Positions 15,103-36,627 of a stretch of DNA of 64,000 nucleotides are shown one piece after another (position 1 is the stretch's first letter; every line of letters begins with the position of its first letter). Where the stretch lies: the NCBI RefSeq assembly GCF_013004065.1, contig NZ_CP053084.1:1178001-1242000 (forward strand), written 5' to 3'. Position numbers and translations under genes: made by a program. Below the pieces are notes generated by a model, which saw only the letters and a program-made list of their open reading frames with translations, was not told the DNA's origin and ran no database searches. This DNA is from Limnobacter sp. SAORIC-580 (lineage in GTDB: Bacteria > Pseudomonadota > Gammaproteobacteria > Burkholderiales > Burkholderiaceae_B).

Positions 15103-15113
15103 GGACCAACAAC

Positions 15114-18876: not shown

Positions 18877-21339
18877 TTAGATCAATTCGTTTTGCTGGTT
18901 CAAATACACCTCGGGCGAAATTCGAAAGGCTGCGCCGGTAGGGCATGCACGAACACAAGCTGGGCCGCCATCTTTGCCGTGGCACAAGTCACACTTGTAG
19001 GCTTTTTTGATGGAATTCGCGTCGTATTTCACTGGACGTTCACCCAGGGGACCGCCCGAGCCAAACAGCAACCAAGACAACAAGCCAGTTTTTCTGGGGG
19101 GTGGTTTTACCCGCAATTCAATGGCGTTGTAGGGGCAGTTTTTGGCGCAATTACCGCAGCCAATACAGGTGTCCGCAATCATCACCTCGCCCTTTTCATT
19201 GCGGCGAATGGCATCGGGCGGGCAGTCTTTCATGCAATGTGGTTGTTCACAATGTCGACAGGAATGCGCCAGGTGAATGTTCTGGAAGGTGGGGCCAGCG
19301 TCTCGATCCAGGCGAGGTATCCCGTCGTGTGTTTCTGCACATGCACGTTCGCAATTGTCACAATGCACACACAAATTCTCATCGATAATCAAGGCGTTGG
19401 TTGCATCTCCCAAACCTTGCTTCATCAGAAAATGAATCAAATCGCTTTCACGTTTCGCTGTACTTTCCCGGAAAATCGCATCATGAACGCGTTTGCCAAT
19501 CTTGGTTTGCAGGGCTTTTTTCCAGTTGCTGTTTTTGCTCAACACGTCGATGACCGCGTCTGCTTGAATCAACAGCACTTCGGTGAGTACCGTCGCGGTA
19601 CATGTCGTTTGGCGATCCGTACCATTCACCAAATCAATTTCACCCACATAGCTGCCTGCGGATACATACGACAGTACGGAGTCTTGATCATCAATCAACT
19701 TGGATACAGACACTGACCCGCGCCGAATTAGGTGCAAGCCGTCAGTTTTGTCGCCTTCACTGAACAGTTTTTCACCTCGCACGTAGCGGGTCACACTGAT
19801 GCCTGATGCGATCAGTTGTTCGATTTCCTGGGGTTCTAGCTGCGGGGCAAGGTGTGTAGACAAGGCTCTGCGCACAAACGTTTCGTCGATGGTTCGTCGC
19901 ACTGCATCCACCGAGGCAATTAGCTTCAACATGGCTTTGCGAGGCGTTTCAATCAATACGCAGTTTTCTCCCGCGTAAACCGTGGCTGTGCGGCGTCGCC
20001 CGGAGATCAGACCCATCTCGCCAAAATAGTTGCCTTTGTCGAGATTAAGAATGAATGGTTTGCCTTCCTTGTTCACCAATTCAATGCCCACGCCACCCTG
20101 CACAATCGCAAAGAAAGTGCTGGTGTAGTCACCTTTGTGGAAAATGACAGAACCTTTCTTGGGTTGGTGAAGTGTTGATTCCAGCATGAATTCCCGCAGC
20201 TGAAGGCGAGTCATCTGGTTGAACAGTGGAACATTTTCCAGAATCATGTCCAGCACTGCCGAGACAGAGACATCACCCAGGGGTTTGAATTTCTCGGCAA
20301 GCAACGGCTCGTCAGCGGGTACCACCGGCAAGCCCATGATGGAATCCACCACCTCATGGCCTTGGTTCATCGCTTGCTTGATTAGAGGGTATCCACCCAG
20401 CGCACCGACAATGAACAGGCCTGGCACGTTGGATTCATAAGTTTCGCTAAGCGCAGGCACTGCGTTGGGATCGCTGTTGGGGAATGTCACCCCGAAGCTC
20501 TCTACCAGGCCACGGGGCGGTGTCGCCCCCAAACGGGCAATAATTCGGTGAACTGGCATGGCCTGCTCACCTTCGGGGCCTTTATAGCGGTAGTTGAGCG
20601 AGGGCTCACCCTCTTTGGCCTCTGGGATTTCTTCTACTGCACTCGTACTGGTGTTGTAGAAGATACGCAAATCTTCATTCCTGTCTGCCGCAAGAATCTG
20701 ATTCAGATTGCCTTCTTTACAGCGGGCAAATTCATCTTTGCGGTTGATCAATACCACCTTGTTGTTCTTCATCAAGGCCAGGGCGTTTTCAATGGCGGCA
20801 TCACCCGCGCCAATTACAATAATCGTTTCATTGTTGAATTCGTCAGGGTCAGCCAGGGTGTATTGAACATTCGGAAGGTCGTCACCAGCGGTTCCAATCT
20901 TTCGTATATTGCCCTGCAAACCAATCCCCAGAATCACAGTTCGGGCAGTGGTTGTGCTTCCGTCCTCACAGGTCAGCTCAAATGGCCCGGCGCCATCATT
21001 GAGTTTGATTATTTTGCTAACCGTTTTCTTGTACTGAATATTGATTTTTTGATTGAGCAACTGAGAATCCCAGGTACCCAAAATACTTTCCCGTTTTCCA
21101 GCTTCGAATGACATGCCGCTGCGAAGGGGCAGAAAGCCGGGCTCGGCCATGACGTGCTTGCCCTTTTGGTACTTGTAAATTGTGTCCGATGCGTGGTTCT
21201 CTGATTCAAACAACACATACTTACAACCCAGTTGCTGCGCCCGTGCAGCAGCGGATAAACCTGCCGGTCCGGAACCTACAATGGCGACATCAAGTTCTGC
21301 TTGTATTTCGGCGAACATGGGTTTGAGATTGTCTTGCAT
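18877..21339 (-). CDS. FAD/NAD(P) oxidoreductase fused to two cNMP-binding domains and a polyferredoxin
   Basis: An 820-residue three-part fusion. Residues about 15-340 form a thioredoxin-reductase-like flavoprotein: FAD motif VGSGPAGLSAA (from 21), second dinucleotide motif VIGAGDAAIENA, and the closing VPGLFIVGALGG. Two cyclic-nucleotide-binding domains follow (about 375-490 and 510-625; YFGEMGLISGRRRTAT and YVGEIDLVNGTDRQTT). Residues 657-800 carry four ferredoxin-type cysteine clusters (CVHCDNCERAC, CRHCEQPHCMKDC, CIGCGNCAKNC, CDLCHGKDGGPACVRAC), like DmsB/HybA electron-transfer subunits. There is no signal peptide, so it is cytoplasmic. It is the last gene of the multiheme operon and could pass electrons between NAD(P)H and that chain under cyclic-nucleotide control. 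The donor and acceptor are inferred. Confidence 0.9.
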   Translation of the reverse strand: MQDNLKPMFAEIQAELDVAIVGSGPAGLSAAARAQQLGCKYVLFESENHASDTIYKYQKGKHVMAEPGFLPLRSGMSFEAGKRESILGTWDSQLLNQKINIQYKKTVSKIIKLNDGAGPFELTCEDGSTTTARTVILGIGLQGNIRKIGTAGDDLPNVQYTLADPDEFNNETIIVIGAGDAAIENALALMKNNKVVLINRKDEFARCKEGNLNQILAADRNEDLRIFYNTSTSAVEEIPEAKEGEPSLNYRYKGPEGEQAMPVHRIIARLGATPPRGLVESFGVTFPNSDPNAVPALSETYESNVPGLFIVGALGGYPLIKQAMNQGHEVVDSIMGLPVVPADEPLLAEKFKPLGDVSVSAVLDMILENVPLFNQMTRLQLREFMLESTLHQPKKGSVIFHKGDYTSTFFAIVQGGVGIELVNKEGKPFILNLDKGNYFGEMGLISGRRRTATVYAGENCVLIETPRKAMLKLIASVDAVRRTIDETFVRRALSTHLAPQLEPQEIEQLIASGISVTRYVRGEKLFSEGDKTDGLHLIRRGSVSVSKLIDDQDSVLSYVSAGSYVGEIDLVNGTDRQTTCTATVLTEVLLIQADAVIDVLSKNSNWKKALQTKIGKRVHDAIFRESTAKRESDLIHFLMKQGLGDATNALIIDENLCVHCDNCERACAETHDGIPRLDRDAGPTFQNIHLAHSCRHCEQPHCMKDCPPDAIRRNEKGEVMIADTCIGCGNCAKNCPYNAIELRVKPPPRKTGLLSWLLFGSGGPLGERPVKYDANSIKKAYKCDLCHGKDGGPACVRACPTGAAFRISPEVYLNQQNELI

Positions 21340-21342
21340 GGT

Positions 21343-22692
21343 TTACGCTCCCACCGCGGCTTTCAGGGCCAGCAGTTCGGATTGGAATGCTTCGCGATCG
21401 TAGGCCTCATCATTGCTGAGTAATTTCAGCAAACGGTCCATTTTTGAATTCACGGTTTGCGCAATGCGCGAATTTCCTTTGCGGGCCAGGCCGTTGGCTA
21501 CGCTGCTGATCGACATGTAGGCTTGCTCGGCCCCTGCGAAATCAGCGTACTGATTGTTGGCTGCCATGTTCACCAGGTCCTTCAGGATTTTTTCCAGTAC
21601 CTGCTCCGTAAACGGCACGGTGGCCACCACTTTGCGCACTGTGTTGAGTTGGGCGTGAAGTACATTCGCGGCACGTTCAACTTCGTTGAAGTTGGCGGCT
21701 GGCGATGTACTTGCAATATGCAACTGGTTCACCAGTTTTCCGATATCGCTGCTGTGTTGTGGCGCAGCCGCGCGAACAATGGCCTGAACCATGATGAGGC
21801 TGGAGTTGTTGATGCGGGCCTGCCCGGGGCTGCGGGCCAGGTCTTTGGACCAGTCTTTTTTGCTCATCGGTGAATGGCAGGCGTGGCAGTCGAACATCAT
21901 GAGCTCGGGCATGATGCCCTGGCGATTTCGCTTGGGGTCGGCAATCAGTTCCAGCAAATTGGCACTGCTTGCAAACTGACCCATGGCCCAGATTTTCCCG
22001 GCATCGTAGGCACCTTTGCGCTGAACCCAATCTTCGTCAATTTTGTAATGCGGGGGCTCCAAGGCCATGAAGGTTTCAACTTCAATGGAAATGCGTGGGT
22101 GGCCTGCGCCCATGATTTGGTGGGTAATGGGGCGGCTTGAATCGCCCACATGGCAGCTGGTGCACAGCTTGGCAGCAGCATAGGGATCGCTGGTGGGGTA
22201 CAGGCCATTTTCAATGTTTTTCGCATGGCTGGCTTTGGGCTCTACGTGGGTTTTAATCCATTTTTCGGCCGGGCCGTGGCAGGCTTCGCAATTAATGCCA
22301 TCGCTTTTGTCAAAGCGTGGGCCTTGCTTGCTGGCAGGCACGTTGTGGCTGTGGCAATCCAGGCAAACTTTGGCTTCATGGGCTGGTTGGGCAAGCCCCA
22401 GGTTTTTTGCAATGCGTTGCGATTGTGCGTTTTTTAGTACGGCATAGGCTTGTGTGTGAGGGTCTTCACGTAGCCAAGTGGTGTATTCGTTTTGCAAAAC
22501 AGGTGTCGCCGTGCGTTCAGCAATGCTGCCGTGGCAGGTGCTGCTTGCACAGTTCACTGTGCCCACCGATTGGTGTTGCGACTGGTGTGGCATGGTTTGG
22601 GTCATACCGCCCGTGGGCGCAGCCAGCAGCACGCTTGTGCCCAGCGTAAGCAACAGGCGATTGAAGCATCGATTCAAGGCGTTTGCTTTCAT
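21343..22692 (-). CDS. Multiheme c-type cytochrome (cytochrome c-554-like)
   Basis: A 449-residue exported cytochrome. A signal peptide covers about residues 1-33. Four canonical heme sites are present (CLDCH, CEACH, CTSCH, CHACH), plus a CX4CH site near the N-terminus (CASSTCHG), so four or five hemes are likely. The heme-rich part occupies the first 300 residues and resembles cytochrome c554/NrfB-like multihemes. The last 150 residues are helical without heme motifs. It lies 3 bp from both neighbours in a tight operon and should be periplasmic, passing electrons between the other cytochromes. Confidence 0.88.
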   Translation of the reverse strand: MKANALNRCFNRLLLTLGTSVLLAAPTGGMTQTMPHQSQHQSVGTVNCASSTCHGSIAERTATPVLQNEYTTWLREDPHTQAYAVLKNAQSQRIAKNLGLAQPAHEAKVCLDCHSHNVPASKQGPRFDKSDGINCEACHGPAEKWIKTHVEPKASHAKNIENGLYPTSDPYAAAKLCTSCHVGDSSRPITHQIMGAGHPRISIEVETFMALEPPHYKIDEDWVQRKGAYDAGKIWAMGQFASSANLLELIADPKRNRQGIMPELMMFDCHACHSPMSKKDWSKDLARSPGQARINNSSLIMVQAIVRAAAPQHSSDIGKLVNQLHIASTSPAANFNEVERAANVLHAQLNTVRKVVATVPFTEQVLEKILKDLVNMAANNQYADFAGAEQAYMSISSVANGLARKGNSRIAQTVNSKMDRLLKLLSNDEAYDREAFQSELLALKAAVGA

Positions 22693-22695
22693 GGC

Positions 22696-25600
22696 TTAAT
22701 CCTTTCTGAAAGCCACTGAATTGACTTTGGGCTTGGGCAAGTAGTTTTCCTTTTCAACCTTGTCGGTCACAGTCCACAATCTGCCATCGGGGCGCAGGTA
22801 AAACGCTTCCATTTCCTTGCGGGTAAATGGGCGCGAACCAATGCGGCCAAACACGGCAATTTGCCCACCTGTTTCATCCACGGCACGATCGCGGTCCAAC
22901 CCTTTCGACACCGACAAAGCCGGGCTTGGGGTTTTACGCCATGCAATCAATTCCGGCATGGGCGCAGGCGAGAAGCCGTAAAATTTGGGCTGCGTGTCGG
23001 GCGATGTCAGTTGCAACACTTTCAAACCATTCACACCGTCGGCCACATACGCAAACAGCGATGCGTTGGTAGAGCCCACCACCACATCATGCGCGTCATT
23101 CAGTTGCCCGTCAGCAGTAAATTGTTGATACACCACGGGCTTTCGCGGACGTTCAATGTCTACGATGACCAAGCCCTGTCTTTTTGCAGCCACGTAGGCG
23201 TAGGTACGCGCCAAATAAACCCGTTGCGCATCGGCCAGTGCTACCACCGCACCGGTGTGCTCGGGTTTCTCGGGGTGGGTAATGTCGATCACTTCCAGCC
23301 CTTTGGCCGTGGTGGCAAACAGGTAGCGGAATTGAACCGCTGTGGCGCGTGCATCCTGCAAGGGCAGGGTGGTGATGTGGCGCGGCTTCAAGGGGTTGTT
23401 GATGTCGACAAACACCAGGCCTTTGGGGGTGGTGATGTAGGCATAGTGCCCGCCCAGGGTAATGTGGCTGGCGCCGTTCAATACGCCGTTTTCATTCCAC
23501 GTTACAGCGCGCTCGAAAAAGTTGTTGCGTGGTTCGCCGTCGGCTAGTGTATTTACATTCACAGCAATCAGACCCTCTTCGCTGTCGGTGATGAAGGCAT
23601 AGTTGTAAATGGGGTGGAAGGGCTGTTCCATATTGGTGATGCGCATCAAGTCACCCTGGTTTTTCTCGGGGTTGATGGGCTGGTTAGTGGGCAAGGCCAT
23701 GCACGTCGCGTTTTTCGTGGCCACATGGGTGTCGTGCCCCAAGGGGCTGAATGGTGCCGTAATTACGCGCTGGCCATAACCCTTGTTGGCGACACTGGCT
23801 GCATCATAGGCGCGAAAGCCTCCTTTGCCTTCAGCCACAAACACATATTCGCCGCGCAGTTGCAGGCAGCTGGCCACGCCCTTGGTGGTGTGGTCCATCA
23901 GCGCTGGCACCACGGTATCGGCCAGTTCTCGGTTGCGATTCAAGTGGTTCTGGTAATAGTCGGGGTAGGCATACTTGTGCAGGTAACTGCCCAACACGGC
24001 CTGGGGTTCGTCCCACTCTGTCACAGTGACTGCCGCAATGTGTTCGCTGCCACCCAGCCAGGCGTTGAAGCCAATGAAGTTCACGAAGTTGGTGCCCTGC
24101 AGCAGCAACTGCGCCATGATGGCGTTGTTGTCATCTTCTCGTGACAAATGGCAATCGCTGCAGGTTTTGGTTTCTTCCTTGCGCTCGGTGTGCGGGTAGT
24201 GTGGTGCAAAAGCCTGCGAGGAAAAACCACTGGCTGCAATCGGTGGCTGCTGAATGTAAATACGCTCGCGGTTCGCGTTCATTGACGACAGAATCAAAGC
24301 CGAGCTTGAACGAATTGGCGCTATGCGGTTGCCTTTCACCGGGCCATGTACGCCCAGCTGGAACATGTCATCGCGTGCCACTTGCGGGTTGTAGGTGGCG
24401 TAGTTTCGGGTTTCCCCGCCTTCATAATGCAGGCGCTCGGTTTTCCAGTTGGCTTGAATGGGCAAGTGACAACCAGCACAGCTGGTGGTCCAGCTCAAGT
24501 GACAGGTGAAGCAGGTCATCTTGTCGTTGTCGTGTGCCAGTTCTTTTACGCCCGGGCCCCATTTGCCATCCTGACCCTCTGCGCCTGCACCCATCAATTT
24601 GGCGCGTGCTGCTTTGGCGTTGTACTCAGGGTGGGCCGGGTTCATGTTGTCTTTCACCAGACTCATTTCCCATTCTTTGTTGGGGTCCAGTGCAGCGCGC
24701 TGGTATAGCTTTCCATCGCGCCACTCGAAACGCTTACGCCCGTCTTGCGTTCGCAATTGGGTCAGATCGCTGCCGCCGGGTGGTGCGGCAGGCCCGCTGG
24801 TGCGCAAGGTGGGGTATTTGGTGGCAGTGCCATGGCAATCGGCACAATCCACTTCAACTGCAGCAGCCACTTCGCCGTAAATGTGGCCATTGCCGTGCAT
24901 GTCTTGCGCAAAGTGGCAATCCACGCAGTGCATGCCCACGTCCAGGTGAATGGAGCTTAGGTGTACTGCCTTGTCGAATTTCTTGGGGTCGTCGTCGGCA
25001 ACAACATTGCCCTCGGCATCCAGCAATGCGCCTTTGCGGTTGCGCTTGAACACCGCGCGGAAGTTCCAGCCATGGCCATGGTAATCCGCAAACTGGGTGT
25101 CTTTCAATTTGCTGTTCAGTGTGGACACGTTTTTAAGGAACTCAGGGTCGCTCCACTTGCCACGCACCGCCGCTTCTTCGGGGTTGCGATCCAGAATTTC
25201 GCGCATTTCCGAATCGGTGGGGTAGCGTTGCTTTTCTGGCCACATGTGCGGCGCATCGCTTTCGTAGTCCCACATGATGTAGCCGTAATAGCTGTTCACA
25301 AACACGTTAGGCTGGTGCATATGGCACACCATGCACTGCGAGCTTGGAATGGCGCGGGTGAATTCATGCTTCACCGGGTGGCCACTTTCATTTTTTGCAA
25401 TGGTTGGGTCAATGGTTTGTGTGGTGCCATCGTGACCAAACTTGGCGTAGGGTCCTGCGTGCTTTGGGTCGCGGTCGTTGGTGTAAATGGTGTGGCAACC
25501 TGTACAGCCTGATGAACGGTAATCGCCCGGTTGCTCATTGGTGCCCAGAAACCAAAGATGTGGATCGTTCAAACGGGTTTTCGTCACGTTAATCAAAGGT

Positions 25601-26595
25601 ACCGCAATTCGCTGGCCCGTGCCGGGACCCCGGTTGGACTGTTTGATGTCGGGCCGCCCTGGTTCATCCAGGCGCTGAATTTGACCCAGCACGTTGGGCA
25701 AGCCCACCTCGGGAAATATGCTGTTAATCACCTTCCCACCGCGTTCAAATACGCGGAATATGTCGCCCGGGGGCGTGGTTTCCCACGCGGGCAATGGCGC
25801 CAGTTCATTCAGAATACCCTTGTGAACAAACAGCTCGTTGTTGGCCTCCACCGGGTTTTTCAGCAAACCAGGTTGACCATCTTGCGTGTAAGCCTCGCCA
25901 AGAATGTAGCGCTTGTAAGGCAAGATTCCATTGTTATAAGAAGCACCGCCCCACAGCATGGCCGAGGTGCTCATCAGGCTACGTTCCTGGGCTTGAATGA
26001 CCGGCAAATGACATGCACCACAGGCCTCGCGTGCAACACGCAAATCGCCCGGGTTGATGAAACGAATGTAAGCAGGGTGCTCTTTGTTCAGCTTGGCATA
26101 AGAACGTTTTGGGTTGGCTGACGAAGGGTAGTTCCAGAATTTCTCGTTGCGTGGCGCAATGTGCGCTTTGTCCAGCGCGGCACGGTATTCGGGTGCAAAG
26201 CCTTTTTCACGCGCAGCGCGGGTGTGGTCGTATGCCAACGAGCCTTGCTTGTCTTCTTTGCCGTTCCATTTCACGGTGGCGTCACCGCCATGGCAATCGG
26301 TGCAGCCCAACACCACGCCAGGGTTGGCATGCATGGTGTGTTGGTCGGTTTGTGTGTGGCAGGTCATGCAGCCTTCGGTTTTTGCAAAGGCCTGTTGCGC
26401 CGTTTGGCGTTCAGGCGCTGCAGGCGCCATGGTGTAACTTTTTTCAGGCAGCTTTTCACTGGCGGCATGAGCCACCGGGGCGATACCCAGAGTGGAAACA
26501 GCGGCCACTGCGAAACCCAATGCAAACAGCCAGCCCTTCCAGCGATTGTTGCTGGCGGGCTTTGTTGGAGGAGCAATGGCGGTATTCAAATTCAT
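22696..26595 (-). CDS. Decaheme cytochrome c with C-terminal LVIVD beta-propeller repeats
   Basis: A 1299-residue exported protein. The ATG at 26595 (MNLNTAIAPP) is preferred over TTG codons just upstream. The signal peptide ends VAHA/AS at about residue 45, with no lipobox. Ten CXXCH sites are spread over roughly residues 75-820 (CMTCH, CTDCH, CGACH, CTGCH, CMVCH, CVDCH, CADCH, CFTCH, CAGCH, CSDCH). The last 400 residues hold LVIVD-type repeats (GLVFVDINNPLKPRHI, GLEVIDITHPEKPEH, GLVIVDIERPRKPVV) that should form a beta-propeller. The fusion suggests a large periplasmic or surface electron carrier with a docking or substrate-binding propeller. The neighbouring barrel protein makes a surface location possible but unproven. 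Confidence 0.88.
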   Translation of the reverse strand: MNLNTAIAPPTKPASNNRWKGWLFALGFAVAAVSTLGIAPVAHAASEKLPEKSYTMAPAAPERQTAQQAFAKTEGCMTCHTQTDQHTMHANPGVVLGCTDCHGGDATVKWNGKEDKQGSLAYDHTRAAREKGFAPEYRAALDKAHIAPRNEKFWNYPSSANPKRSYAKLNKEHPAYIRFINPGDLRVAREACGACHLPVIQAQERSLMSTSAMLWGGASYNNGILPYKRYILGEAYTQDGQPGLLKNPVEANNELFVHKGILNELAPLPAWETTPPGDIFRVFERGGKVINSIFPEVGLPNVLGQIQRLDEPGRPDIKQSNRGPGTGQRIAVPLINVTKTRLNDPHLWFLGTNEQPGDYRSSGCTGCHTIYTNDRDPKHAGPYAKFGHDGTTQTIDPTIAKNESGHPVKHEFTRAIPSSQCMVCHMHQPNVFVNSYYGYIMWDYESDAPHMWPEKQRYPTDSEMREILDRNPEEAAVRGKWSDPEFLKNVSTLNSKLKDTQFADYHGHGWNFRAVFKRNRKGALLDAEGNVVADDDPKKFDKAVHLSSIHLDVGMHCVDCHFAQDMHGNGHIYGEVAAAVEVDCADCHGTATKYPTLRTSGPAAPPGGSDLTQLRTQDGRKRFEWRDGKLYQRAALDPNKEWEMSLVKDNMNPAHPEYNAKAARAKLMGAGAEGQDGKWGPGVKELAHDNDKMTCFTCHLSWTTSCAGCHLPIQANWKTERLHYEGGETRNYATYNPQVARDDMFQLGVHGPVKGNRIAPIRSSSALILSSMNANRERIYIQQPPIAASGFSSQAFAPHYPHTERKEETKTCSDCHLSREDDNNAIMAQLLLQGTNFVNFIGFNAWLGGSEHIAAVTVTEWDEPQAVLGSYLHKYAYPDYYQNHLNRNRELADTVVPALMDHTTKGVASCLQLRGEYVFVAEGKGGFRAYDAASVANKGYGQRVITAPFSPLGHDTHVATKNATCMALPTNQPINPEKNQGDLMRITNMEQPFHPIYNYAFITDSEEGLIAVNVNTLADGEPRNNFFERAVTWNENGVLNGASHITLGGHYAYITTPKGLVFVDINNPLKPRHITTLPLQDARATAVQFRYLFATTAKGLEVIDITHPEKPEHTGAVVALADAQRVYLARTYAYVAAKRQGLVIVDIERPRKPVVYQQFTADGQLNDAHDVVVGSTNASLFAYVADGVNGLKVLQLTSPDTQPKFYGFSPAPMPELIAWRKTPSPALSVSKGLDRDRAVDETGGQIAVFGRIGSRPFTRKEMEAFYLRPDGRLWTVTDKVEKENYLPKPKVNSVAFRKD

Positions 26596-26611
26596 CAACA
26601 AACAACCTGCT

Positions 26612-28861
26612 TTAGAAACTCAAAATCACGTTAAACAGAAAGGAGTAAGGGTCCTTGTCTTCCGGAAACAATTCTTTGTAGCCCTTGCCAGGCAACAGCT
26701 TGGCAAACGACCCGTTCACCACAATATTTTGTGAGAAGAATGGTCGGTACTGAAAACCCACTGACGCATCAATGCCCAGGTCGGTGGAGGGAGGGCGCTG
26801 TTGTCGCAATGTGCCCAGCACATTGGTGTTGTCGAACTCAAGCTTGTTCAGGTTGGCCACCAAACGCAACTCGGGCAATACATCAATATCGGCACCAATA
26901 CCCACTAACAACAGCCCTGGGTTGATGAAATTCGATTGTCCCTGTTCTTTGCTTGAACGCAGGGAGGGCAACACGCCGTTTCGGCCTGACAAAGCCACTC
27001 CACCGCCGCCGATCAAAGGAATATTTTGACGGATGAAAAAGCTGGTGTCGGCCCCTGCAAATTGGGGGTTCTCAAAAATTGCATCGAAACCTTCGGCTTT
27101 GCCATCAAAGGGATCTTCATCACCCGATGCATACAGGAAACTGCCACGCAAGCGGAACCAGTCAAAGTCGCGCGACAATTCTGTGGCGTGAAAGAATGCA
27201 TCAATGTCTTGCTCGCGCTGGGCAAGCGGGTGCCTGTCTGTTTTACCCGTGGCGTAGTAGGTTGAAGTGGTAATGTTCATGCGGCCGTAGTGGCCATCAC
27301 CGCTGAACCCAAAATAATCCACATGGTAGCCAAACGGCTTTTGATCGCCCAGCGAGGAGGGCCGAGCGAGAAATCCGTTTGCGTCGAAGTAACGTTCACC
27401 GTCTTCATCGTTGCGGTTGTGGATGTAAGAAACCTGACTGGTGAAACCCAAAAACGGGAAGTCTTGCCGATACAGGTTGGCCACGAAAAAATCATCGTCA
27501 CGCAGGTCTTGCCGAATATCATTCAGACCACTGTTGGTGTCTTTTTCAACCCGCTTGAAATAGCCGATGTTGTACTGGTAAATGTTGTTGTTGCGGTTGC
27601 CGAACAGGCGAATGCCCATGGGCAGGTCTTGGAACAGAAAGCCCCGGAAGTCGCTGATGAATGGCTGAATACCTACACGCAAGCTGTCGAAATCGTAGCG
27701 ATCTGACACGTTGCGAAGGTGCACGTCGACAAATGCTTCCTGAATACCCACAAACCCTTCACGGCGAACATCGCCGGAAGAAGAGGCAATTTTCAGCAAG
27801 CGGTCTTCATTGACGCGCACATCGGTGTAGTTGAACACCGGTGTTAAACGGAACTCATAGTCGGGTGGTTTGAAAGTAGTGTTGCCTTTGGTCAACGACA
27901 AACTCACGATCAAGTTGTGGGCAAAAATCGATTGCTCACCATCACCGAAAATATTGGCCTGCCCACCAGTGGTGGATGTCGCTGGCGGTACAGGCACCGG
28001 GAAGTTGCGTTGCTCGTACAGCGTGTCGGCAATAATACCCAAGTTAAAAAACCAGTCGGGGCCCAGTGTGTTCTGCAACACGGGCAGGTCGCCCTTGATC
28101 ACGTTCTGGTTGTAGGGGTCGAACAAGGGAAACTTGAAACCCAGCGATTGCATAATTCGCCAGCGATCAGGCACTGCCACTGTTTCGCGTGGCAGGTTGG
28201 GCAAAGGTGGGGGCACCTGGCTCGGGTCGATCACGGGTATGGCAATGTCACGCGGCACAATGGGTGTGTCGCGGCCAGGAATGGCGCGCTGTACCTGCGG
28301 TGTTTGTGGAATGGTGTTGGGGACTATGCCCGGTGTGGCAGTGCTTGAAGGGCGTATGCCAGTGCCTGCTTTGTCTTGCAGCACATCGGCTGAAAATGCG
28401 CGGGGCGCAAATACGCCCAGCGATTGTTCACCGTACTGGCCGGTGCCTTGTTGCACCCAGCCGTCGGTGCTGCCCAGGAAGCCACCCAAGAGGCTGTCCT
28501 GAATACGAACCCTGTACCAGCCGTCTTTCTCTTCATAGGCATCGACCAACTGACCTTTGAAAAACTCGCCAATCGCGCGAGATTCCTTGTTGGGTTTTGT
28601 GTACACCACGCTTCGGTTGTCAAACACTTGCAGCAACACCAGCGGGCGTTCGGCGTTTTCAAGTTCCGTGGCTTCCGGAATACCCGCCACTTTCCGGGTA
28701 ACTTTCTCAACGGTTTCTGTCACCTGGGCAACAAGGTTGGGTTTTGTTTCGCTGCGAATATCCGCCCGAATTTGTGCAATTGCGGGCACGGGCAGCAAGC
28801 CAGCCAAAATCAGCCCGATGGCCAGTGGTTTCAAACGCATGATGTTGTTGTTTTTCTTCAT
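26612..28861 (-). CDS. SH3-domain outer-membrane beta-barrel protein of the multiheme operon
   Basis: A 749-residue exported protein. The start chosen is the ATG at 28861 (MKKNNNIMRLK), overlapping the upstream stop as ATGA; an ATG at 28873 is possible. The signal peptide ends AIAQ. A bacterial SH3-like module (about residues 85-150; RSVVYTKPNKESRAIGEFF, then GWYRVRI and DGWVQQ) is followed by a Pro-rich linker. The last 500 residues look like alternating strands ending in ILSF, the terminal Phe typical of BAM substrates. I infer a large porin. Its place between two large c-type cytochrome genes recalls porin-cytochrome conduits (MtrB/PioB type), but I see no direct family motif. SH3 could bind peptidoglycan. 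Confidence 0.75.
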   Translation of the reverse strand: MKKNNNIMRLKPLAIGLILAGLLPVPAIAQIRADIRSETKPNLVAQVTETVEKVTRKVAGIPEATELENAERPLVLLQVFDNRSVVYTKPNKESRAIGEFFKGQLVDAYEEKDGWYRVRIQDSLLGGFLGSTDGWVQQGTGQYGEQSLGVFAPRAFSADVLQDKAGTGIRPSSTATPGIVPNTIPQTPQVQRAIPGRDTPIVPRDIAIPVIDPSQVPPPLPNLPRETVAVPDRWRIMQSLGFKFPLFDPYNQNVIKGDLPVLQNTLGPDWFFNLGIIADTLYEQRNFPVPVPPATSTTGGQANIFGDGEQSIFAHNLIVSLSLTKGNTTFKPPDYEFRLTPVFNYTDVRVNEDRLLKIASSSGDVRREGFVGIQEAFVDVHLRNVSDRYDFDSLRVGIQPFISDFRGFLFQDLPMGIRLFGNRNNNIYQYNIGYFKRVEKDTNSGLNDIRQDLRDDDFFVANLYRQDFPFLGFTSQVSYIHNRNDEDGERYFDANGFLARPSSLGDQKPFGYHVDYFGFSGDGHYGRMNITTSTYYATGKTDRHPLAQREQDIDAFFHATELSRDFDWFRLRGSFLYASGDEDPFDGKAEGFDAIFENPQFAGADTSFFIRQNIPLIGGGGVALSGRNGVLPSLRSSKEQGQSNFINPGLLLVGIGADIDVLPELRLVANLNKLEFDNTNVLGTLRQQRPPSTDLGIDASVGFQYRPFFSQNIVVNGSFAKLLPGKGYKELFPEDKDPYSFLFNVILSF

Positions 28862-30825
28862 GGTGCTGGGCATACGTTTTGTTCACTGCTGTTGTTGAAC
28901 GGAGTTTGCGGGCACTGCACATACTTCAAAAATTCGCCTGAATTGGACAATTCATTGGCAGTCAGCAAGGTGGAGGGGAATGGGCGCATGGTACTGCCCA
29001 CAGCGGTTGCACCGTTGATCACGCCCAGGTAGCCAATCATGTCGTCCTGGTCCACGCCGTCACCGGACACACCAATTGCACCTACCAATGTGTCGCCTTT
29101 GTAAATCGGGAAACCTCCCGGGAAAATCTGCATACCATTGGCGAAACGGCCTTGTCGACCTGCGGGAATATTCACGTCGTCAACACAGGTGAGTGCGGCA
29201 GGGGGTGAGAACTGATTTGCTGCGCGCGTGGTCGCTGTCAGCGTACCCAATACCTTGTTGGTCACAATGTTCAATTGAAAGCCAACGTTGAAGGGGCTCC
29301 ATTGAGAGATTGGTGATGAAAGTGGGCCTGTTGGCGTACCCACCTCGCCGTCTGGAAAGTAAGGGCGGTGAACGTTGCCGATTGCGCGCGCCGAAAATGC
29401 CTTGCTGCCATTCAGGGAACTGGCCTGCCCGGTAAAAAACGTGTCCATTGCATTGGCAAATGCGGCATGGTTACCCGCATCAATTGCAGTAAAGTCAGTC
29501 AATGCCTCTGCTGAACTGAATGAAAGTGCCGAGCGCGCTTTTTGTACCGATACATCGGTGCCAAATATCGGTGCGTCTGACGAGCGAACCAAGCCTAGAA
29601 TATCTCCGTCAAGATCAACCACAGACACCGTGACTTCCGCTGGAGAACCCAAAGGATTTCTGATTTGCGCACGAGCGCGGTTCGCAATCTTCATTCCCTC
29701 GACCAAAATATTCTGCACCTCGGCTTGCGTCAGGTTCGCTCCGGCAGTCGGCGGAAAACGCACCGAGGTGTTGTCAGCGGGGTTGGTAATCAGGGTAAAT
29801 GTGTTCAGGCCATTGAAGGCTGGGGCGGTGGTCGCTACGTAACCGGATTGACTGGTGCCATAAGATGTTCCAGCAATTACACCCGCAGCTGTTTTGTAGC
29901 CTGTAACTGCCACGAAGTTTCCATTCCCGGCCAGCGCCGCCACGCCAGCCACTGCGGGTGTGGTGTTGGAGAACTGAAAGGTTTGGCCGTTTGCAGTAAT
30001 ACGATTTGCACGAATTTGAGCGGGCGCACGGAAAGCCTCTGGCAGGGCGGCAAATGCGATTTCTTCCTCAAGATCAACTTCATTGGTGAGGATGTCACGG
30101 TCCAGCCCGTACACGCCTTGTGTACCCGCATCGGTTGATGCAATCACGCCGATACCACCCACCACCCGGCCTTCCTGATAGATCGGAAAGCCACCAGGAT
30201 CTGCTGACAAACCAAGCGGTGAGCGTTTTGGTCCAATGGTCGCATTTTGTGAAAGCCACACATTCAGATCAGAGCAGGGAAGTTGGCTGAACTGCACGCC
30301 GTACAGTGGGCCGCTGGGCTGGCCTGTTTCCCCTGGTTGGAAAAATTCCTGAACAATTTGGCTGGCTGTACGGGTGCTGAATGCGTTCCCGGTTGAAGAC
30401 AGGTAGGCTCCGGTAATTGCTTTGGCAATGGCTGCCAATTCACTGGGTACAGGTGTGAATCCGTCCAGGCCCCTGCCATTGGCACCACTCAGTCCACTTG
30501 TGATAATTACGGATGGGCTGGAGTTGGTCATGCGATAAACGGCCAACACATTGCCGACACGATCGGTGACTGCGATGGTTGATTGCACACCTCGGGAAAT
30601 CGACGCCTGTACCGCGCGGGCCACAATGTCGTTAACCTCCGGGATGGACAAGCTTTGCGTGCCCAAAGGCTCAACATTGAAATTGGGTTCAGACGAGCTT
30701 CCACCGCCACCCCCGCCACCGCAAGACACCAAGATGAATGGTGTTGCAAGGCATACGGCCACTCCCATGGCCATTCTTCTTAATTGGGTTGCTGTGCCTG
30801 TCATGGCATTTGTGCGTTTGCGCAT
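28858..30825 (-). CDS. Lipoprotein with two GlcG/HbpS-like (DUF336) domains
   Basis: A 655-residue predicted lipoprotein: the leader ends in LVSC followed by a run of Gly and Ser, a plausible lipobox and flexible linker. Two copies of the GlcG/HbpS fold are seen, about residues 55-290 (IPEVNDIVARAVQASIS, then AVTDRVGNVLAVYRM) and 370-620 (LTQAEVQNILVEGMKIA, then SVVDLDGDILGLVRS). Each has the F-P-G-G-F-P-I-Y- or G-G-F-P-I-Y-like loop and a closing G-V-x-G-I-G/S-x-D motif. Proteins of this family bind heme or cobalamin-like ligands in some cases. Within a multiheme operon a heme-binding or redox-scaffold role is attractive but inferred. The 3' end overlaps the next gene. Confidence 0.82.
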   Translation of the reverse strand: MRKRTNAMTGTATQLRRMAMGVAVCLATPFILVSCGGGGGGGSSSEPNFNVEPLGTQSLSIPEVNDIVARAVQASISRGVQSTIAVTDRVGNVLAVYRMTNSSPSVIITSGLSGANGRGLDGFTPVPSELAAIAKAITGAYLSSTGNAFSTRTASQIVQEFFQPGETGQPSGPLYGVQFSQLPCSDLNVWLSQNATIGPKRSPLGLSADPGGFPIYQEGRVVGGIGVIASTDAGTQGVYGLDRDILTNEVDLEEEIAFAALPEAFRAPAQIRANRITANGQTFQFSNTTPAVAGVAALAGNGNFVAVTGYKTAAGVIAGTSYGTSQSGYVATTAPAFNGLNTFTLITNPADNTSVRFPPTAGANLTQAEVQNILVEGMKIANRARAQIRNPLGSPAEVTVSVVDLDGDILGLVRSSDAPIFGTDVSVQKARSALSFSSAEALTDFTAIDAGNHAAFANAMDTFFTGQASSLNGSKAFSARAIGNVHRPYFPDGEVGTPTGPLSSPISQWSPFNVGFQLNIVTNKVLGTLTATTRAANQFSPPAALTCVDDVNIPAGRQGRFANGMQIFPGGFPIYKGDTLVGAIGVSGDGVDQDDMIGYLGVINGATAVGSTMRPFPSTLLTANELSNSGEFLKYVQCPQTPFNNSSEQNVCPAP

Positions 30826-30858
30826 CGACTTCTAACTCGCTCATCTTTGTTTTTCAAT

Positions 30859-30881
30859 GGACTTGCTTGCCTGCAAAGTCC
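30859..30881 (-). other. Intercistronic hairpin in the cytochrome operon
   Basis: In the 104-bp gap between the decaheme gene and the lipoprotein gene, GGACTT at 30859-30864 can pair with AAGTCC at 30876-30881 around an 11-base loop. There is no T-run after it on the minus strand, so it is not a normal terminator. It could be an RNA processing or stability element, or chance. Confidence 0.25.
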
Positions 30882-30929
30882 CCAGTTCACTGCTGGTCTG
30901 TCTACTCAAGCTACTGCGTCGAATGGCGA

Positions 30930-32396
30930 TTACTTCACTGCCACTTCTTTGTTATGAATATGGTATTCGTGGCACACGCCACAGTCTGACTGAACTTTGT
31001 TGAGCACGGGTTTACTGCCCGCATGACAAGTTTGACAACCTTCAATTGCGGGCATCAGTACATCACTGGCTTCTTCGGATTTGGCCGCTTTGTGACAACT
31101 GTCACAACTTTCAAAGGCGTGTGCCTGGTGGTCGAATTTGGCCATGGGCATCCACGGGTGGGCAGGATTGATCTCGGCAATCTCGTACTGTGGCATTCTG
31201 GAGCCAGAGGTTTTCGTATTGCCCAGACCATCCACGGCTTTTACTTCGTGACATACCGAACATGCGGTGTTCTCAAACAACTCCGCTGTGGCAAAAGCAG
31301 CCTGCGCACGTGGGTTTCCGCTCAGGTTTCGCAGGTTGGATCGATTCGGGTCTTTCTCGCCAGGGCGCGCCCGTAAAACAGCGCGTTGCGCATTTACCCT
31401 GTTCCGTTCTTCAGGGTGAAGTGCCAGATAACTGTAAAACTCTTCAACGGTGCTCAGCACTGCATCGACTGGGCCGTGGGGAACCTGTCGATCAGGCAAA
31501 GCAGGCTCAAAACTCAGTTTGTGACATTCCTGGCAGTGGCTTTCCATACTGAGTGTTTTAAACCCTGTAGCTGTATCCGCTGGCTCGTGACAGTTGGCGC
31601 ATTCCATCACAACCTTCTTGCTCGGGCTGTCAATGCCCTTGGGGTCGAGATGAATGTCGTGGGGGAATTTCAGGCTGGTTTTCTCGGTAATGGGTGTGTT
31701 TGCCACCATCCGAATTCGGCGCAAATCACTGGGTTCCGGACCAGTAGCCACTGTGATTCTGAATGCTGGGTGTTTGTCTGCGGCAAAGTCGTTGACTGCC
31801 AATGTTTCAGTTTTGGGCGCCACAGTTTTAATATCTGCATGGCAAGCCGCGCAGTCGGTGCCCACAAAATGTTTGTTTTGTTCTGCAAGGCTTTCGCGCC
31901 CTTTGTGGTCTCGATGGCAGCTTGCGCAGCGGCCTTCCTCAAATGAGGTGTCGGGCAGCGTTTGCTCGGTCACATGCAGACCCATATTGCTGTGGCACAC
32001 CAAGCAGTTTTCGTCTTTCACTCTTGAGAAATTACCGGTATGACAAGCTTGGCAGTCGCCTTCCAGATTCGAGTGCGCTGAGGCCAACGGGCCCGGGTTC
32101 CAGATTGAATCGAGTGCCAGTGCCGTGGTGTTTCTCGTGCTTGAAACCTGGGTACTTTGAAGGCTTGGGTGCGCATTTACCGGCAATTGGTCGGCAGGCA
32201 CAGTTTGCGTCTTTTCGTCAGAGCCTTTGGACTCAAAGCCAAACAGCTCAGGTGCTTGCATGGCCACTAAAGGCAAAACAAAGAACGCAAAGAGAATGGG
32301 TACGAAAAATATCCAGGACAGGGGGCGCTTTAGCCCCAAGGGTTTTTGTAATGCCTGTTGCTCACGTTGAAGCGGGCTTTTTTCTTGTTCGGCCAT
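30930..32396 (-). CDS. Membrane-anchored decaheme cytochrome c (cytochrome c3/doubled-CXXCH type)
   Basis: A 488-residue protein with a short cytoplasmic N-terminus, one transmembrane anchor (about residues 28-46, SWIFFVPILFAFFVLPLVA) and a periplasmic domain with ten CXXCH sites (CQACH, CLVCH, CASCH, CAACH, CANCH, CQECH, CSVCH, CDSCH, CQTCH, CGVCH). Additional His residues available as distal ligands fit bis-His c3-like hemes. It begins 6 bp after the stop of the b-type-like membrane protein, so the two may form a membrane module that takes electrons from quinol. No catalytic (NrfA- or Hao-like) motif is seen, so it is probably an electron carrier. Confidence 0.9.
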   Translation of the reverse strand: MAEQEKSPLQREQQALQKPLGLKRPLSWIFFVPILFAFFVLPLVAMQAPELFGFESKGSDEKTQTVPADQLPVNAHPSLQSTQVSSTRNTTALALDSIWNPGPLASAHSNLEGDCQACHTGNFSRVKDENCLVCHSNMGLHVTEQTLPDTSFEEGRCASCHRDHKGRESLAEQNKHFVGTDCAACHADIKTVAPKTETLAVNDFAADKHPAFRITVATGPEPSDLRRIRMVANTPITEKTSLKFPHDIHLDPKGIDSPSKKVVMECANCHEPADTATGFKTLSMESHCQECHKLSFEPALPDRQVPHGPVDAVLSTVEEFYSYLALHPEERNRVNAQRAVLRARPGEKDPNRSNLRNLSGNPRAQAAFATAELFENTACSVCHEVKAVDGLGNTKTSGSRMPQYEIAEINPAHPWMPMAKFDHQAHAFESCDSCHKAAKSEEASDVLMPAIEGCQTCHAGSKPVLNKVQSDCGVCHEYHIHNKEVAVK

Positions 32397-32402
32397 GTTC
32401 GC

Positions 32403-33218
32403 TTACCAGTAAATAAAAACAGACAGCACGTGCGTAATCAACGCCGCCAGAAGGCCAAATGACAATGGAACGTGGATGGATAGCCACAGCTCAAGCCAGT
32501 ACCGTAAGTGGTAATAACGGCGCAATTGTTTCAAGGCGCGCAATCGCTGCACCTGGTTTCTGTACAGGTCAGAGAGGTTGTCAGCCTGCGTCATTTCCCG
32601 CTGCAGATAATTGACAGCATTCTCGGTGGCGCAGTCTTTAACATTCCCCCTGCGTTGGCTTTTGCGATTGGGGTAAATGCTTTGTTTGAGTGAAGCAGCG
32701 ATAACACGCCCGACCATATCAGCTACATTCTTAAGCTGTTTTTGTGCCTCGCGGTCGAGGGTTTGAATTTGTTCCACTATTTGTTCGGGACTTTGGCGAT
32801 TTAGAACGTTCGACATTTCAGTGGGATAACGCAAATAAAAACTGAGTCCCCAAACACCTGTGCCAATGGTTGCCATGGTCAGCACATACGCCAACGAATG
32901 CACGTTCCAGCCAATCTGAAAGCCGGTGTGCAATGTTGCTACCACCGACAAAGCCAAGCCCAAATAAATATGTGCGGATACCCAGCCGCGTAGGTTGCCT
33001 GTTTCGTTGGCGTACTGGCGCTTGCGTACACCAAACCACATCAGCCAAACAATGAGTAGGGCACCAATTGTTCCCAGGGTATAGCCCAGCCAGGTTCCGC
33101 CATTGGCATTGATTCTTGGTTGATCGAAAAGGTAGGCAAACGATGAAATGAGCGTCAGCAGCAAGGCCCATTTCAGGAAAACAAATCGTTTGTAGTTGAA
33201 CAGGTTGTCCTGAATCAT
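32403..33218 (-). CDS. Polytopic membrane protein, putative b-type cytochrome
   Basis: A 271-residue inner-membrane protein with about five or six hydrophobic helices: about 15-30, 42-62, 80-97, 108-128 and a final pair at about 232-270. Histidines are placed inside helices as expected for heme b ligands: SAHIYLGLALSVVATLHTG and SIHVPLSF with ITHVLSVF. A charged, coiled-coil-like stretch (about 140-220) lies between helices and is likely cytoplasmic. It resembles ferric reductase/cytochrome b561-like proteins in general features, not in a precise family. As the first gene of the cytochrome operon it may connect the quinone pool to the decaheme cytochrome encoded next. Function is inferred. 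Confidence 0.65.
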   Translation of the reverse strand: MIQDNLFNYKRFVFLKWALLLTLISSFAYLFDQPRINANGGTWLGYTLGTIGALLIVWLMWFGVRKRQYANETGNLRGWVSAHIYLGLALSVVATLHTGFQIGWNVHSLAYVLTMATIGTGVWGLSFYLRYPTEMSNVLNRQSPEQIVEQIQTLDREAQKQLKNVADMVGRVIAASLKQSIYPNRKSQRRGNVKDCATENAVNYLQREMTQADNLSDLYRNQVQRLRALKQLRRYYHLRYWLELWLSIHVPLSFGLLAALITHVLSVFIYW

Positions 33219-33347: not shown

Positions 33348-34595
33348 TTGAGTCTTGACGTGGCCTTTGTCGGCTTTATCTTCCTGTTTTTCCTAGTATT
33401 TTGCCTGTATTTTGCGTGGAAAGGATTTTTTTTCTCCAATGATCAAAAAACCACGAATGAGGTAGGGTCTCTGGAAGAAAGCCCTGAGTGGCGGGCTTTT
33501 TTGAACCGGCGCCAGGAAATCGAAACAGACCCCACGCTCGACACTTCCAGTAAACAGGTATTGATCGACAATTGGCTAACCATGGCCAGCGAGAGCAAGC
33601 CGCACATGGCTTCGGCCGCAGTTTCTCCCCTTCGTCCGTCTTGGGCGCGACCAAATACCATGTCATGGTTGATCGTGGCCAGTTTGGGGTTTGCAGTTTT
33701 GTTTACCTACCTCATTGGTGCAATACATCCCGGTGCGTTGAAATGGCCTGAAGCGAACTCTGTGAATGCGCTTGCGCCCAGTGTTGATCAATCAGTGGTT
33801 GTTTCCGCCGGGCATCCTGGCGATGGTGCCAGTCTCGAGGACCGGCTTGCGGGCTTGCAAGTAAGGCTTGCGCAGCAGCCTGATGATTTGAGTGGTTGGG
33901 TACTGCTGGCACGAACACATGCCTCCATGTCCAATTACCTTGAAAGTGCGAATGCTTTGAAAAAAGCGCTGGAATTAACGCCAGGGCATCCAGACATTCT
34001 TGCGGATCTGGCTGACATGACCGCGATGGCACAGGGAAGGCAACTGGCAGGTGAGCCCGAAACTTACATTGCAGCTGCGCTGCAAAGCGATCCCCGCCAC
34101 GAAAAGGCGCTTGCCTTGGCTGCAAGTGCAGCGGAGCAAGCCGGTGACAATGACAAAGCGCAGGTGTACTGGCAATTGCTTAGCCAGGTTCAGCAAGCCA
34201 GTTTGAAAAATTCAAACCCAACGCCCGAGGACATTCTCACTTCCGTGAACGTCACTATTCCCGAGGCAGCCTTAAGTAGCTTGAAAGAAAACTCTGCACT
34301 GTTTGTTTTCTTAAAGGCGCAGCCTGGCCCTGGCATGCCCTTGGCTGTGGTTCGTGTACCCGCATCTCAATTGACGGTGGGTGAACAGGCTGTGCGAATA
34401 GGGCCAGGTGACTTTATCCAGGAGGGTGGCGTTGCAGCCATGCCCGACACGGTTCATATTCAAGCACGTTTGTCGATTCAAGGCATGGCCCAAACTGGTA
34501 TGGGTGATATCGAGTCAAGTTGGCAAACGCTTCCCCGCAATCAACTCGCTTCAGGTGTGGATTTAAGTTTGCCGGAACTTACGGCCAATCGATGA
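33348..34595 (+). CDS. ccmI: Cytochrome c maturation protein CcmI (TPR-containing apocytochrome chaperone)
   Basis: A 415-residue inner-membrane protein with two transmembrane segments (about 5-25 and 105-127) around a cytoplasmic loop (SPEWRAFLNRRQEIETDP). A periplasmic TPR region follows (about 160-290; LEDRLAGLQVRLAQQPDDL, SGWVLLARTHASM, NALKKALELTPGHPDIL), then a C-terminal beta domain as in CcmI/CycH. CcmI holds apocytochrome c for heme ligation. The start is TTG at 33348 with a GGGGG stretch ahead. Its position first in the operon is unusual, as it normally comes last. It overlaps the next gene by ATGA and is divergent from the multiheme operon. Confidence 0.87.
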   Translation: MSLDVAFVGFIFLFFLVFCLYFAWKGFFFSNDQKTTNEVGSLEESPEWRAFLNRRQEIETDPTLDTSSKQVLIDNWLTMASESKPHMASAAVSPLRPSWARPNTMSWLIVASLGFAVLFTYLIGAIHPGALKWPEANSVNALAPSVDQSVVVSAGHPGDGASLEDRLAGLQVRLAQQPDDLSGWVLLARTHASMSNYLESANALKKALELTPGHPDILADLADMTAMAQGRQLAGEPETYIAAALQSDPRHEKALALAASAAEQAGDNDKAQVYWQLLSQVQQASLKNSNPTPEDILTSVNVTIPEAALSSLKENSALFVFLKAQPGPGMPLAVVRVPASQLTVGEQAVRIGPGDFIQEGGVAAMPDTVHIQARLSIQGMAQTGMGDIESSWQTLPRNQLASGVDLSLPELTANR

Positions 34596-35914: not shown

Positions 35915-35916
35915 TG

Positions 35917-36609: not shown

Positions 36610-36627
36610 AGGGCAGAAGGCAAAACA

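Follow-up and report, generated by a model that had tools for sequence, protein, structure and literature searches.

What is the function of a tight operon in Limnobacter sp. SAORIC-580 that joins three multiheme cytochromes to a predicted outer-membrane barrel, a lipoprotein, a membrane protein and a cytoplasmic flavoprotein? The operon lies at positions 18877-33218 of the window, the 64,000-nucleotide stretch of contig NZ_CP053084.1 that was analysed. We find that its seven genes form a real, conserved and incompletely described system built of two blocks, the inner of which is homologous, by sequence and profile comparison, to gene clusters of the porin-cytochrome (PCC) type PCC4. Our tentative answer to the question is that the two blocks transfer electrons outward across the cell envelope, driven by NAD(P)H and with their entry adjusted by cyclic nucleotides; this may well be right, though we stop short of calling it probable. 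The genes and their recognizable parts are listed in operon order, with window coordinates and lengths in amino acids (aa).

32403..33218, minus strand: IMP, a 271-aa inner-membrane protein of the four-His di-heme-b type, five helices by family pattern
32928..32984, minus strand: first WX3HX13H sequence motif of IMP (residues 79-97)
32430..32486, minus strand: second WX3HX13H sequence motif of IMP (residues 245-263)
30930..32396, minus strand: DHC, a 488-aa decaheme cytochrome with one N-terminal membrane anchor (10 CXXCH; Cytochrome_C7/c3)
28858..30825, minus strand: 655-aa lipoprotein with HbpS/GlcG-like domains (PF03928, E=3.5e-23, two stretches)
26612..28873, minus strand: predicted 753-aa outer-membrane barrel protein with an N-terminal SH3-like domain and a C-terminal Phe
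28451..28606, minus strand: SH3-like domain of the barrel protein (residues 90-141; PF08239 at 25.9 bits, just under the cut-off of 27)
26618..28054, minus strand: predicted 18-strand barrel (residues 274-752), from a medium-confidence structure model
22696..26601, minus strand: decaheme-LVIVD cytochrome, 1301 aa, 10 CXXCH, with a C-terminal LVIVD propeller (E=2.5e-17)
24148..26370, minus strand: its heme-binding part (residues 78-818), from the motifs, with low model confidence there
22900..24069, minus strand: its beta-propeller (about residues 845-1234), from the structure model
21343..22692, minus strand: c554-like cytochrome, 449 aa, 4 CXXCH and 1 CX4CH, a pentaheme by motif count (motifs, Pfam)
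22531..22551, minus strand: CX4CH probable heme site of the c554-like cytochrome (residues 48-54), by alignment with PCC4-type homologs
18877..21339, minus strand: cytoplasmic flavoprotein, 820 aa, with an FAD/NAD(P) Rossmann part, two cyclic-nucleotide (cNMP)-binding domains and a 4Fe-4S part (Pfam)
20359..21291, minus strand: its FAD/NAD(P) oxidoreductase part (residues 17-327; PF07992)
19915..20160, minus strand: its first cNMP-binding domain (residues 394-475; PF00027), canonical signature
19534..19782, minus strand: its second cNMP-binding domain (about residues 520-602, limits approximate; PF00027 in two stretches), degenerate signature
18925..19392, minus strand: its 4Fe-4S part (residues 650-805; Fer4 families, phmmer matches to ferredoxin-like subunits)

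All seven open reading frames (ORFs) were found, and the gaps between them in operon order are 6, 104, -16 (an overlap), 10, 3 and 3 bp; the coordinates thus confirm the seven co-directional genes, separated by 3-104 bp or overlapping, of the first-pass annotation. Its 24 CXXCH motifs (10 + 10 + 4 across the three cytochromes) and single CX4CH motif were also recovered. Because the CX4CH motif of the c554-like cytochrome aligns with CXXCH or CX3CH in four PCC4-type relatives, it is likely to be a true heme site whose spacing has drifted. A 25th CXXCH, at flavoprotein residue 783, falls inside the 4Fe-4S region and probably binds no heme; heme in the flavoprotein was considered and rejected, as this sole CXXCH sits amid the 4Fe-4S cysteines. 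No CXXCH occurs in the other complete ORFs of at least 60 aa in the window. The barrel-like protein had been given 749 residues; a beta-barrel is indeed predicted, and the first ATG makes the protein 753 aa long.

The set is conserved well beyond this strain. Our sample of 398 genomes, spread evenly across the phylum, comprises the source of the window (G000) and 397 others. Matches to the decaheme-LVIVD cytochrome occur in 22 genomes; in 11 (G000 and 10 others) they span the protein, and in the remaining 11 they cover a short cytochrome or propeller stretch alone. When the seven proteins were searched by tblastn against the loci of the 10 other genomes with the full protein, seven of which belong to one family (f58), all seven genes were found in every one; the HbpS-like lipoprotein of G338 and the IMP of G388 and G251 were found in this way. 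A strong IMP match is present in all 10 of these genomes and in 4 of the 387 that lack the full protein (Fisher P=4e-17), two of the latter ending at contig ends (G192, G040). The decaheme-LVIVD cytochrome has a mean column identity of 69% (36 sequences), and 29 of its 30 motif Cys and His residues are invariant, with C78 present in 97% (36 aligned sequences, window included).

The first-pass annotation had suggested listing genomes with the same seven genes in the same order. The gene content holds and the order varies: relatives keep two tight blocks, flavoprotein-IMP-DHC (inner) and lipoprotein-barrel-LVIVD with c554 (outer), the c554 gene lying at either end. The genes are not scattered and form one conserved system. 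The blocks are joined in the fully mapped Limnobacter loci (G000, G009, G014), in G403 and G411, and in G024 as far as the contig extends; they lie head to tail in G338, are convergent neighbours in G126, G165, G388 and G296, and are far apart in G385, G431 and G251. In Limnobacter G015 the IMP gene is separate from the other six. Matches to the decaheme-LVIVD cytochrome are present in 14 of 16 Limnobacter genomes (G000 included), fragmented and with a stop in G002 and running up to a contig end in G008; G010 is a 65% complete genome. The whole set is carried by the Sphingobium herbicidovorans megaplasmid pMSHV (L123), typed as conjugative, and 13 plasmid records, 12 from Sphingobium and one from Sphingopyxis, hold at least 80% of the decaheme-LVIVD cytochrome in one place. 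Named proteins place it in Duganella, Janthinobacterium and Undibacterium as well. These genera, like Limnobacter and Sphingobium, are known as ordinary heterotrophs.

The inner block is contiguous and co-directional in every one of the other 14 genomes whose IMP match is strong (E<1e-60), and in the same 14 the flavoprotein gene lies directly upstream of IMP. In two of the 14 (G073, G191), which have no LVIVD match, flavoprotein and IMP are fused into one chain of 1118-1123 aa.

L094:6850-10206: fused flavoprotein-IMP chain, DHC next
L095:3052-6423: fused flavoprotein-IMP chain, DHC next

The flavoprotein is N-terminal in the fusion, which would place it on the cytoplasmic side of an N-in IMP. 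The membrane protein had been noted for histidines embedded in its helices, and these prove to form two WX3HX13H motifs of the di-heme-b type. Five histidines, H83, H97, H107, H249 and H263, are invariant in 20 sequences and include all four of the motifs. Four helices pass the hydropathy threshold in the window protein and five in most mapped homologs outside Limnobacter. The positive-inside pattern corresponds to an N-in topology, with averages of 4.7 and 17.6 Lys/Arg in the loops inside versus 0.9 and 0.0 outside; the long inside loop also averages 13.2 Asp/Glu. Given the basic residues in the inside loops, one His pair would lie near each face, and we infer that IMP holds two b hemes in this arrangement. 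PF01292, which we take to be a cytochrome b family, appears in 3 of 120 IMP homologs among the matches listed, and the Limnobacter humi homolog is annotated as ferric-reductase-like in one source. NADPH oxidases and ferric reductases couple an NAD(P)H-FAD part to a transmembrane part with four His and two hemes, a layout that the present system would share. Unlike in those enzymes, electrons here would cross 4Fe-4S clusters and then reach c-type multihemes, and the window IMP lacks a Pfam match.

In its Rossmann part the flavoprotein is similar to ferredoxin-NADP reductase (FNR), thioredoxin reductase and YpdA, and this part contains no redox CXXC. Specificity for NADPH was considered and rejected: the narrow pattern R-K/R-D-E/Q-F-x-R is present in just 2 of 18 family sequences (window included), so NADH and NADPH are both possible. 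The first cNMP domain keeps its binding signature in all 18 sequences and the second in 15, this strain not among them; 2 of 4 PCC4-type proteins have the same cNMP pattern. Within the genus, the second signature is missing in the window strain and G015 and present in G009 and G014. A split flavoprotein in G403 was rejected, as the gene is cut by the edge of the analysed stretch. The ten heme motifs of DHC are invariant in 12 aligned sequences (window included); L094 and L095, which stand outside this alignment, have 9 CXXCH and one longer-spaced motif. An FHA/YscD-like N-terminal domain was detected at E<1e-4 in 7 of 10 tested DHC homologs (L097, L094 and others), above the curated cut-off in just 2 of those 7, and the Limnobacter DHC is too short to hold it.

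The combination had been said to match no named system. This does not stand, as clusters fitting PCC4 contain homologs of the inner block and the group 1 PCCs are similar. The accessible text of He et al. 2017 (PMC5566968) attributes two WX3HX13H motifs in common to the IMPs of PCC3 and PCC4, places PCC4 in iron-oxidising Zetaproteobacteria, gives its multihemes 4, 5 and 10 sites, and describes in Subgroup II a pfam13247 Fe-S gene upstream of IMP. A profile search with the window IMP found one such locus, L111 (G317), in the order pentaheme, 459-aa protein, plant-type FNR, tetraheme, cNMP/4Fe-4S protein, IMP, decaheme; the 459-aa protein has a signal peptide and a C-terminal Phe and is taken as a candidate barrel. 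L102, from a Mariprofundus metagenome-assembled genome (MAG), has this order as far as its contig extends, its FNR-like and barrel-like genes being called from sequence and the latter having no Pfam match. Both loci fit PCC4 when set beside the published description rather than the authors' sequences. A genome scan for the PCC4 pattern gave 23 pattern matches and one locus, from Mariprofundus, and a class-wide search returned 1 of 78, the query itself.

Against L111, blastp gave E values of 5e-45 for the flavoprotein, 3e-8 for DHC and about 1e-8 for IMP and the c554-like cytochrome; hhalign against PCC4-type sequences gave probabilities of 98.5 for IMP and 99.2, over 166 columns, for DHC. No similarity was detected between the barrel and the two PCC4-type barrel-like proteins, which alone made up the profile. 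Like PCC4, the system has a five-helix IMP with two WX3HX13H motifs, an anchored decaheme, a c554-like multiheme, cNMP, 4Fe-4S and NAD(P)/flavin parts, and a barrel gene. The heme numbers differ (4, 5 and 10 there, 5, 10 and 10 by motif count here), and L111 has a separate plant-type FNR and its 459-aa barrel-like protein, whereas here a Pyr_redox-type flavin part shares one chain with the cNMP and 4Fe-4S parts and the outer block consists of the 753-aa SH3-barrel, decaheme-LVIVD and HbpS-like proteins. PF13247 is found in the window flavoprotein, but in Limnobacter the gene sits at the far end of the operon. Since the inner block is homologous and the barrel has no detectable similarity, these comparisons make the system a sister of PCC4 with a different outer block and flavin enzyme.

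A second relationship is to the group 1 PCCs of PMC13264449 (June 2026, Sterkfontein ghost-rock). The accessible text of that study describes 11 clusters with a 4-5 kb decaheme gene beside a barrel of about 20 strands and an FNR nearby in 7 of the 11, and it counts a dominant Limnobacter MAG (SAR200) among the PCC carriers. Here a decaheme gene of 3.9 kb (3906 bp, slightly below the quoted range) lies beside a predicted 18-strand barrel; LVIVD, SH3, HbpS and cNMP parts are not named in the accessible text. Compared by description, not by sequence, the group 1 clusters probably include this type. Our literature search, which covered subscription papers in part and excluded the supplement of He et al., found no description of the LVIVD or cNMP features.

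Other named systems are more distant. PCC3, also treated in the accessible parts of PMC10734462 and PMC13386937, shares a related IMP (hhalign probability 97.7 over 118 columns against the PCC3-like loci L103 and L104) and multihemes. It differs in its very high heme numbers, with medians of 34 and 21 in the accessible text of He et al., 24 and 27 hemes in L103 and 24, 11 and 13 in L104, against 10 and 10 in the window, and no cNMP/4Fe-4S part was seen in L103 or L104. A protein 32% identical to the flavoprotein Rossmann part is encoded on the strand opposite IMP in both loci (L103:3477-4826, L104:7554-8849), a hint that PCC3 may also be linked to NAD(P)H. The Mtr, Mto and Pio systems likewise pair a barrel with large multihemes. 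Membership of Mtr/Mto was rejected, as DHC scores 29.6 bits against the DmsE-family model (cut-off 192.2) and is thus far from a DmsE/MtrA-family decaheme. Their MtrB-type barrel has 26 strands and encloses a cytochrome; the window barrel, predicted at 18 strands in a medium-confidence model, is closest in structure to AlgE and OprD-type channels, and an Mtr-style cytochrome-in-barrel arrangement is therefore not to be assumed. MtrB is not among the structural matches listed, a listing that does not exclude it, and a profile search of the barrel against solved structures gave five matches at E 0.6-0.99, taken as chance. A soluble nitrite or hydroxylamine system, a match to which the first-pass annotation would have taken as a refutation, was rejected because no such family matches above cut-off.

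How might the parts work together? The gene content, its conservation, the domains, the homology of the inner block, the fusion, the barrel prediction and the cyclase- and phosphodiesterase-like neighbours described below are supported directly. From them we infer heme and flavin binding, the order of the carriers, the direction of flow, the crossing of the outer membrane, an acceptor and gating, as follows. The cytoplasmic flavoprotein would oxidise NAD(P)H with FAD and pass electrons through its 4Fe-4S clusters to IMP, whose four invariant histidines would hold two b hemes that carry them to the periplasmic face. Electrons would then enter the anchored DHC, and the c554-like pentaheme and the decaheme-LVIVD cytochrome would relay them as far as the outer membrane; the predicted 18-strand barrel and the HbpS-like lipoprotein there may contact an external or channel-bound acceptor. 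Flow would be chiefly outward, and cNMP binding to the flavoprotein would tune its entry. L111 is consistent with such outward, NAD(P)H-fed flow, pairing a similar IMP and decaheme with a plant-type FNR and a cNMP/4Fe-4S protein. The joint occurrence of the seven genes, the steady inner block with its two fusions, the Rossmann-type protein near the PCC3-like IMPs, the lack of RuBisCO in the hosts searched and the closeness of ccmE to IMP (the last two detailed below) also speak for this reading.

Several observations weigh against this proposal. No protein of the set is predicted to be a surface multiheme cytochrome; the decaheme-LVIVD cytochrome has a Sec-type N-terminus without a lipobox, and its heme half is poorly modelled (the model averages a pLDDT of 48.4). 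A barrel of 18 strands would probably not be wide enough for an MtrA-like wire. At E 0.01 the window IMP has no Pfam match, and its profile gave three matches to solved structures at E 0.16-0.7, taken as chance. The complete genome of Limnobacter G004 has no decaheme-LVIVD match; barrel, c554 and flavoprotein genes, sought at its locus only, are also missing there. The system is thus dispensable, as G004 keeps at this locus (L118) just IMP and DHC, beside ccm genes, and a truncated lipoprotein gene at the break. Finally, the model for PCC3 and PCC4 in the accessible text of He et al. has electrons flowing inward, to the quinone pool at IMP.

The gating step depends on how the genes around the operon are read.

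16582..18846, plus strand: CHASE2 and class III adenylate/guanylate cyclase, outside the operon and convergent with the flavoprotein gene
7265..8047, plus strand: metallo-hydrolase like class-II cyclic-AMP phosphodiesterases (PF02112 at 53.4 bits, cut-off 23.7)
33348..40165, plus strand: cytochrome c maturation genes ccmI, fused ccmA-ccmB, ccmC, ccmE and ccmF, and two small genes, divergent from IMP

Cyclic-nucleotide genes recur near the cluster, a new finding of this analysis, and near a flavoprotein with two cNMP domains this suggests a gated conduit. In 7 of 11 genomes a CHASE2 gene is found no more than 20 kb from the LVIVD gene, versus 0.39 expected (P=1e-8), and in 5 of 11 a two-partner secretion transporter within 25 kb. 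G000, G296 and G403 had already been seen when these distances (CHASE2, 20 kb; ShlB, 25 kb) were set; with these genomes removed the counts are 4 of 8 (P=1.8e-4) and 3 of 8 (P=1e-3). The counts leave out G024, whose contig ends by the LVIVD gene, and G192, which has no LVIVD match. Among the nearby genes, Pfam shows a CHASE2 domain together with a cyclase domain in the window, G296, G411, G388 and G338; blastp aligns the protein over nearly its full length in G403 and in part in G126. A phosphodiesterase-like gene adjoins DHC in 6 of 7 f58 genomes (PF00149 in the five tested; CpdA/SpdA-like, below NCBIfam cut-offs, in the two tested), and an annotated metallophosphoesterase, matching the G338 protein at 52%, lies beside DHC on pMSHV. 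Such genes were sought systematically only beside f58 inner blocks.

The same neighbours could instead form a separate signalling and adhesion operon, comprising the cyclase, phosphodiesterase-like, two-partner secretion and FecR genes, with cNMP domains that bind nothing relevant. We regard this as a serious possibility, while leaning somewhat away from it. G165 (42 kb), G385, G431 (26 kb) and G251 lack a CHASE2 gene less than 20 kb from the LVIVD gene, and in G024 CHASE2 is on other contigs only. That seven of the genomes come from one family (f58) is a further point against gating. The nearest such gene in G126, at 9.4 kb, encodes a CHASE2-EAL protein; a cyclase-aligning CHASE2 gene follows at 12.9 kb, so G126 still counts and the tally is unchanged. 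In G015 a 749-aa gene that occupies the cyclase position, and was called by that position, remains next to IMP although the flavoprotein gene lies apart. For the window hydrolase (7265..8047), RNase Z models score higher (73.6 bits) and below their cut-offs, which counts against a phosphodiesterase assignment. A separate operon accounts poorly for the CHASE2 excess, even with distances picked post hoc, or for the phosphodiesterase-like genes beside DHC in f58 and on pMSHV. A more specific form of the gated proposal, in which an envelope-sensing CHASE2 cyclase and a dedicated phosphodiesterase switch an NAD(P)H-fed conduit that bypasses quinones and toggle export within seconds, we consider rather unlikely.

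A reductase confined to the periplasm would do without electron transfer across the outer membrane. The barrel would be an anion diffusion channel for an oxyanion, chelated metal, quinone or humic compound that the decaheme-LVIVD cytochrome reduces in the periplasm. The AlgE and OprD-like structure and the lack of a predicted surface cytochrome agree with this, as does a resemblance of part of the decaheme to ExtM of the selenite/tellurite operon. The ExtM match, at 60.6 bits, is well short of the curated cut-off of 800 and covers just about 50 residues; of five short cytochrome relatives checked in the phylum sample, four resemble ExtM, with scores under the cut-off, and one does not. Moreover, barrel residues 586-650, a long, strongly conserved and poorly modelled stretch, would be unexpected in a simple channel, and the SH3 domain and the lipoprotein, with its N-terminal lipobox-like LVSC followed by poly-Gly, are left unexplained. 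On this balance we think a periplasmic reductase unlikely. Twelve-heme ExtM-like cytochromes (L023, L025, L026) in other genomes share part of the heme region with the decaheme-LVIVD cytochrome, with no homolog of this barrel in the 19.5-kb stretches around them, and the decaheme-LVIVD cytochrome has no match to solved structures at E 0.01.

Electron uptake, in which the outer membrane is the site where an extracellular donor such as Fe(II) or Mn(II) gives up electrons that run inward to the quinone pool at IMP, is improbable: a quinone-reducing IMP would not need the NAD(P)/FAD/4Fe-4S gene that adjoins it in all 14 genomes, with a fusion in two of them, the RuBisCO large chain is missing from all 13 hosts searched, which disfavours uptake for Calvin-cycle growth, and Duganella, Janthinobacterium, Undibacterium and Sphingobium are not known as metal oxidisers. 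Its attraction lies in the inner block having homologs in PCC4-type clusters, including the one in the Mariprofundus MAG, in the iron-oxidising hosts of PCC4, and in the likening of the IMP histidine pattern to quinone-active cytochromes b (PMC5566968, accessible text).

The remaining neighbours are recorded here. All 15 Limnobacter genomes with both genes, and G024, have ccmE no more than about 5 kb from IMP; in the window, ccmI to ccmF were matched to families and the last two genes (39186-40165) were read from sequence only. Beside the CHASE2 cyclase, positions 8066-16568 encode a FecR protein and a two-partner secretion pair, an ShlB/FhaC-type transporter with a 1794-aa exoprotein. Genes for ShlB and large exoproteins recur near the cluster on pMSHV (L123) and in G296, G431 and G338; in G251 they lie by the inner block. 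A patatin-like phospholipase with an N-terminal cNMP-binding domain (5498-7237) is encoded beside the class-II phosphodiesterase-like hydrolase, and in G411 a Na+/H+ exchanger with a cNMP-binding domain is directly downstream of the LVIVD gene (L042:5123-7654). The accessible part of a Geobacter paper on cyclic nucleotides and porin-cytochrome systems concerns a c-di-GMP/GAF sensing network. Our literature search on CHASE2 and two-partner secretion showed nothing relevant by title among the 20 of 38 papers listed.

Porin-cytochrome systems have mostly been studied in specialist metal reducers and oxidisers. Limnobacter and Sphingobium have the present system in full, and Duganella, Janthinobacterium and Undibacterium share its signature protein. 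Should NAD(P)H drive the system, these bacteria would have a wire with no need for the quinone pool; if cyclic nucleotides control it, electron export would be a regulated act of aerobic heterotrophs. Culturable hosts make both the NAD(P)H drive and the gating testable, and the outcome bears on PCC4, which was proposed in 2017 without an assigned function.

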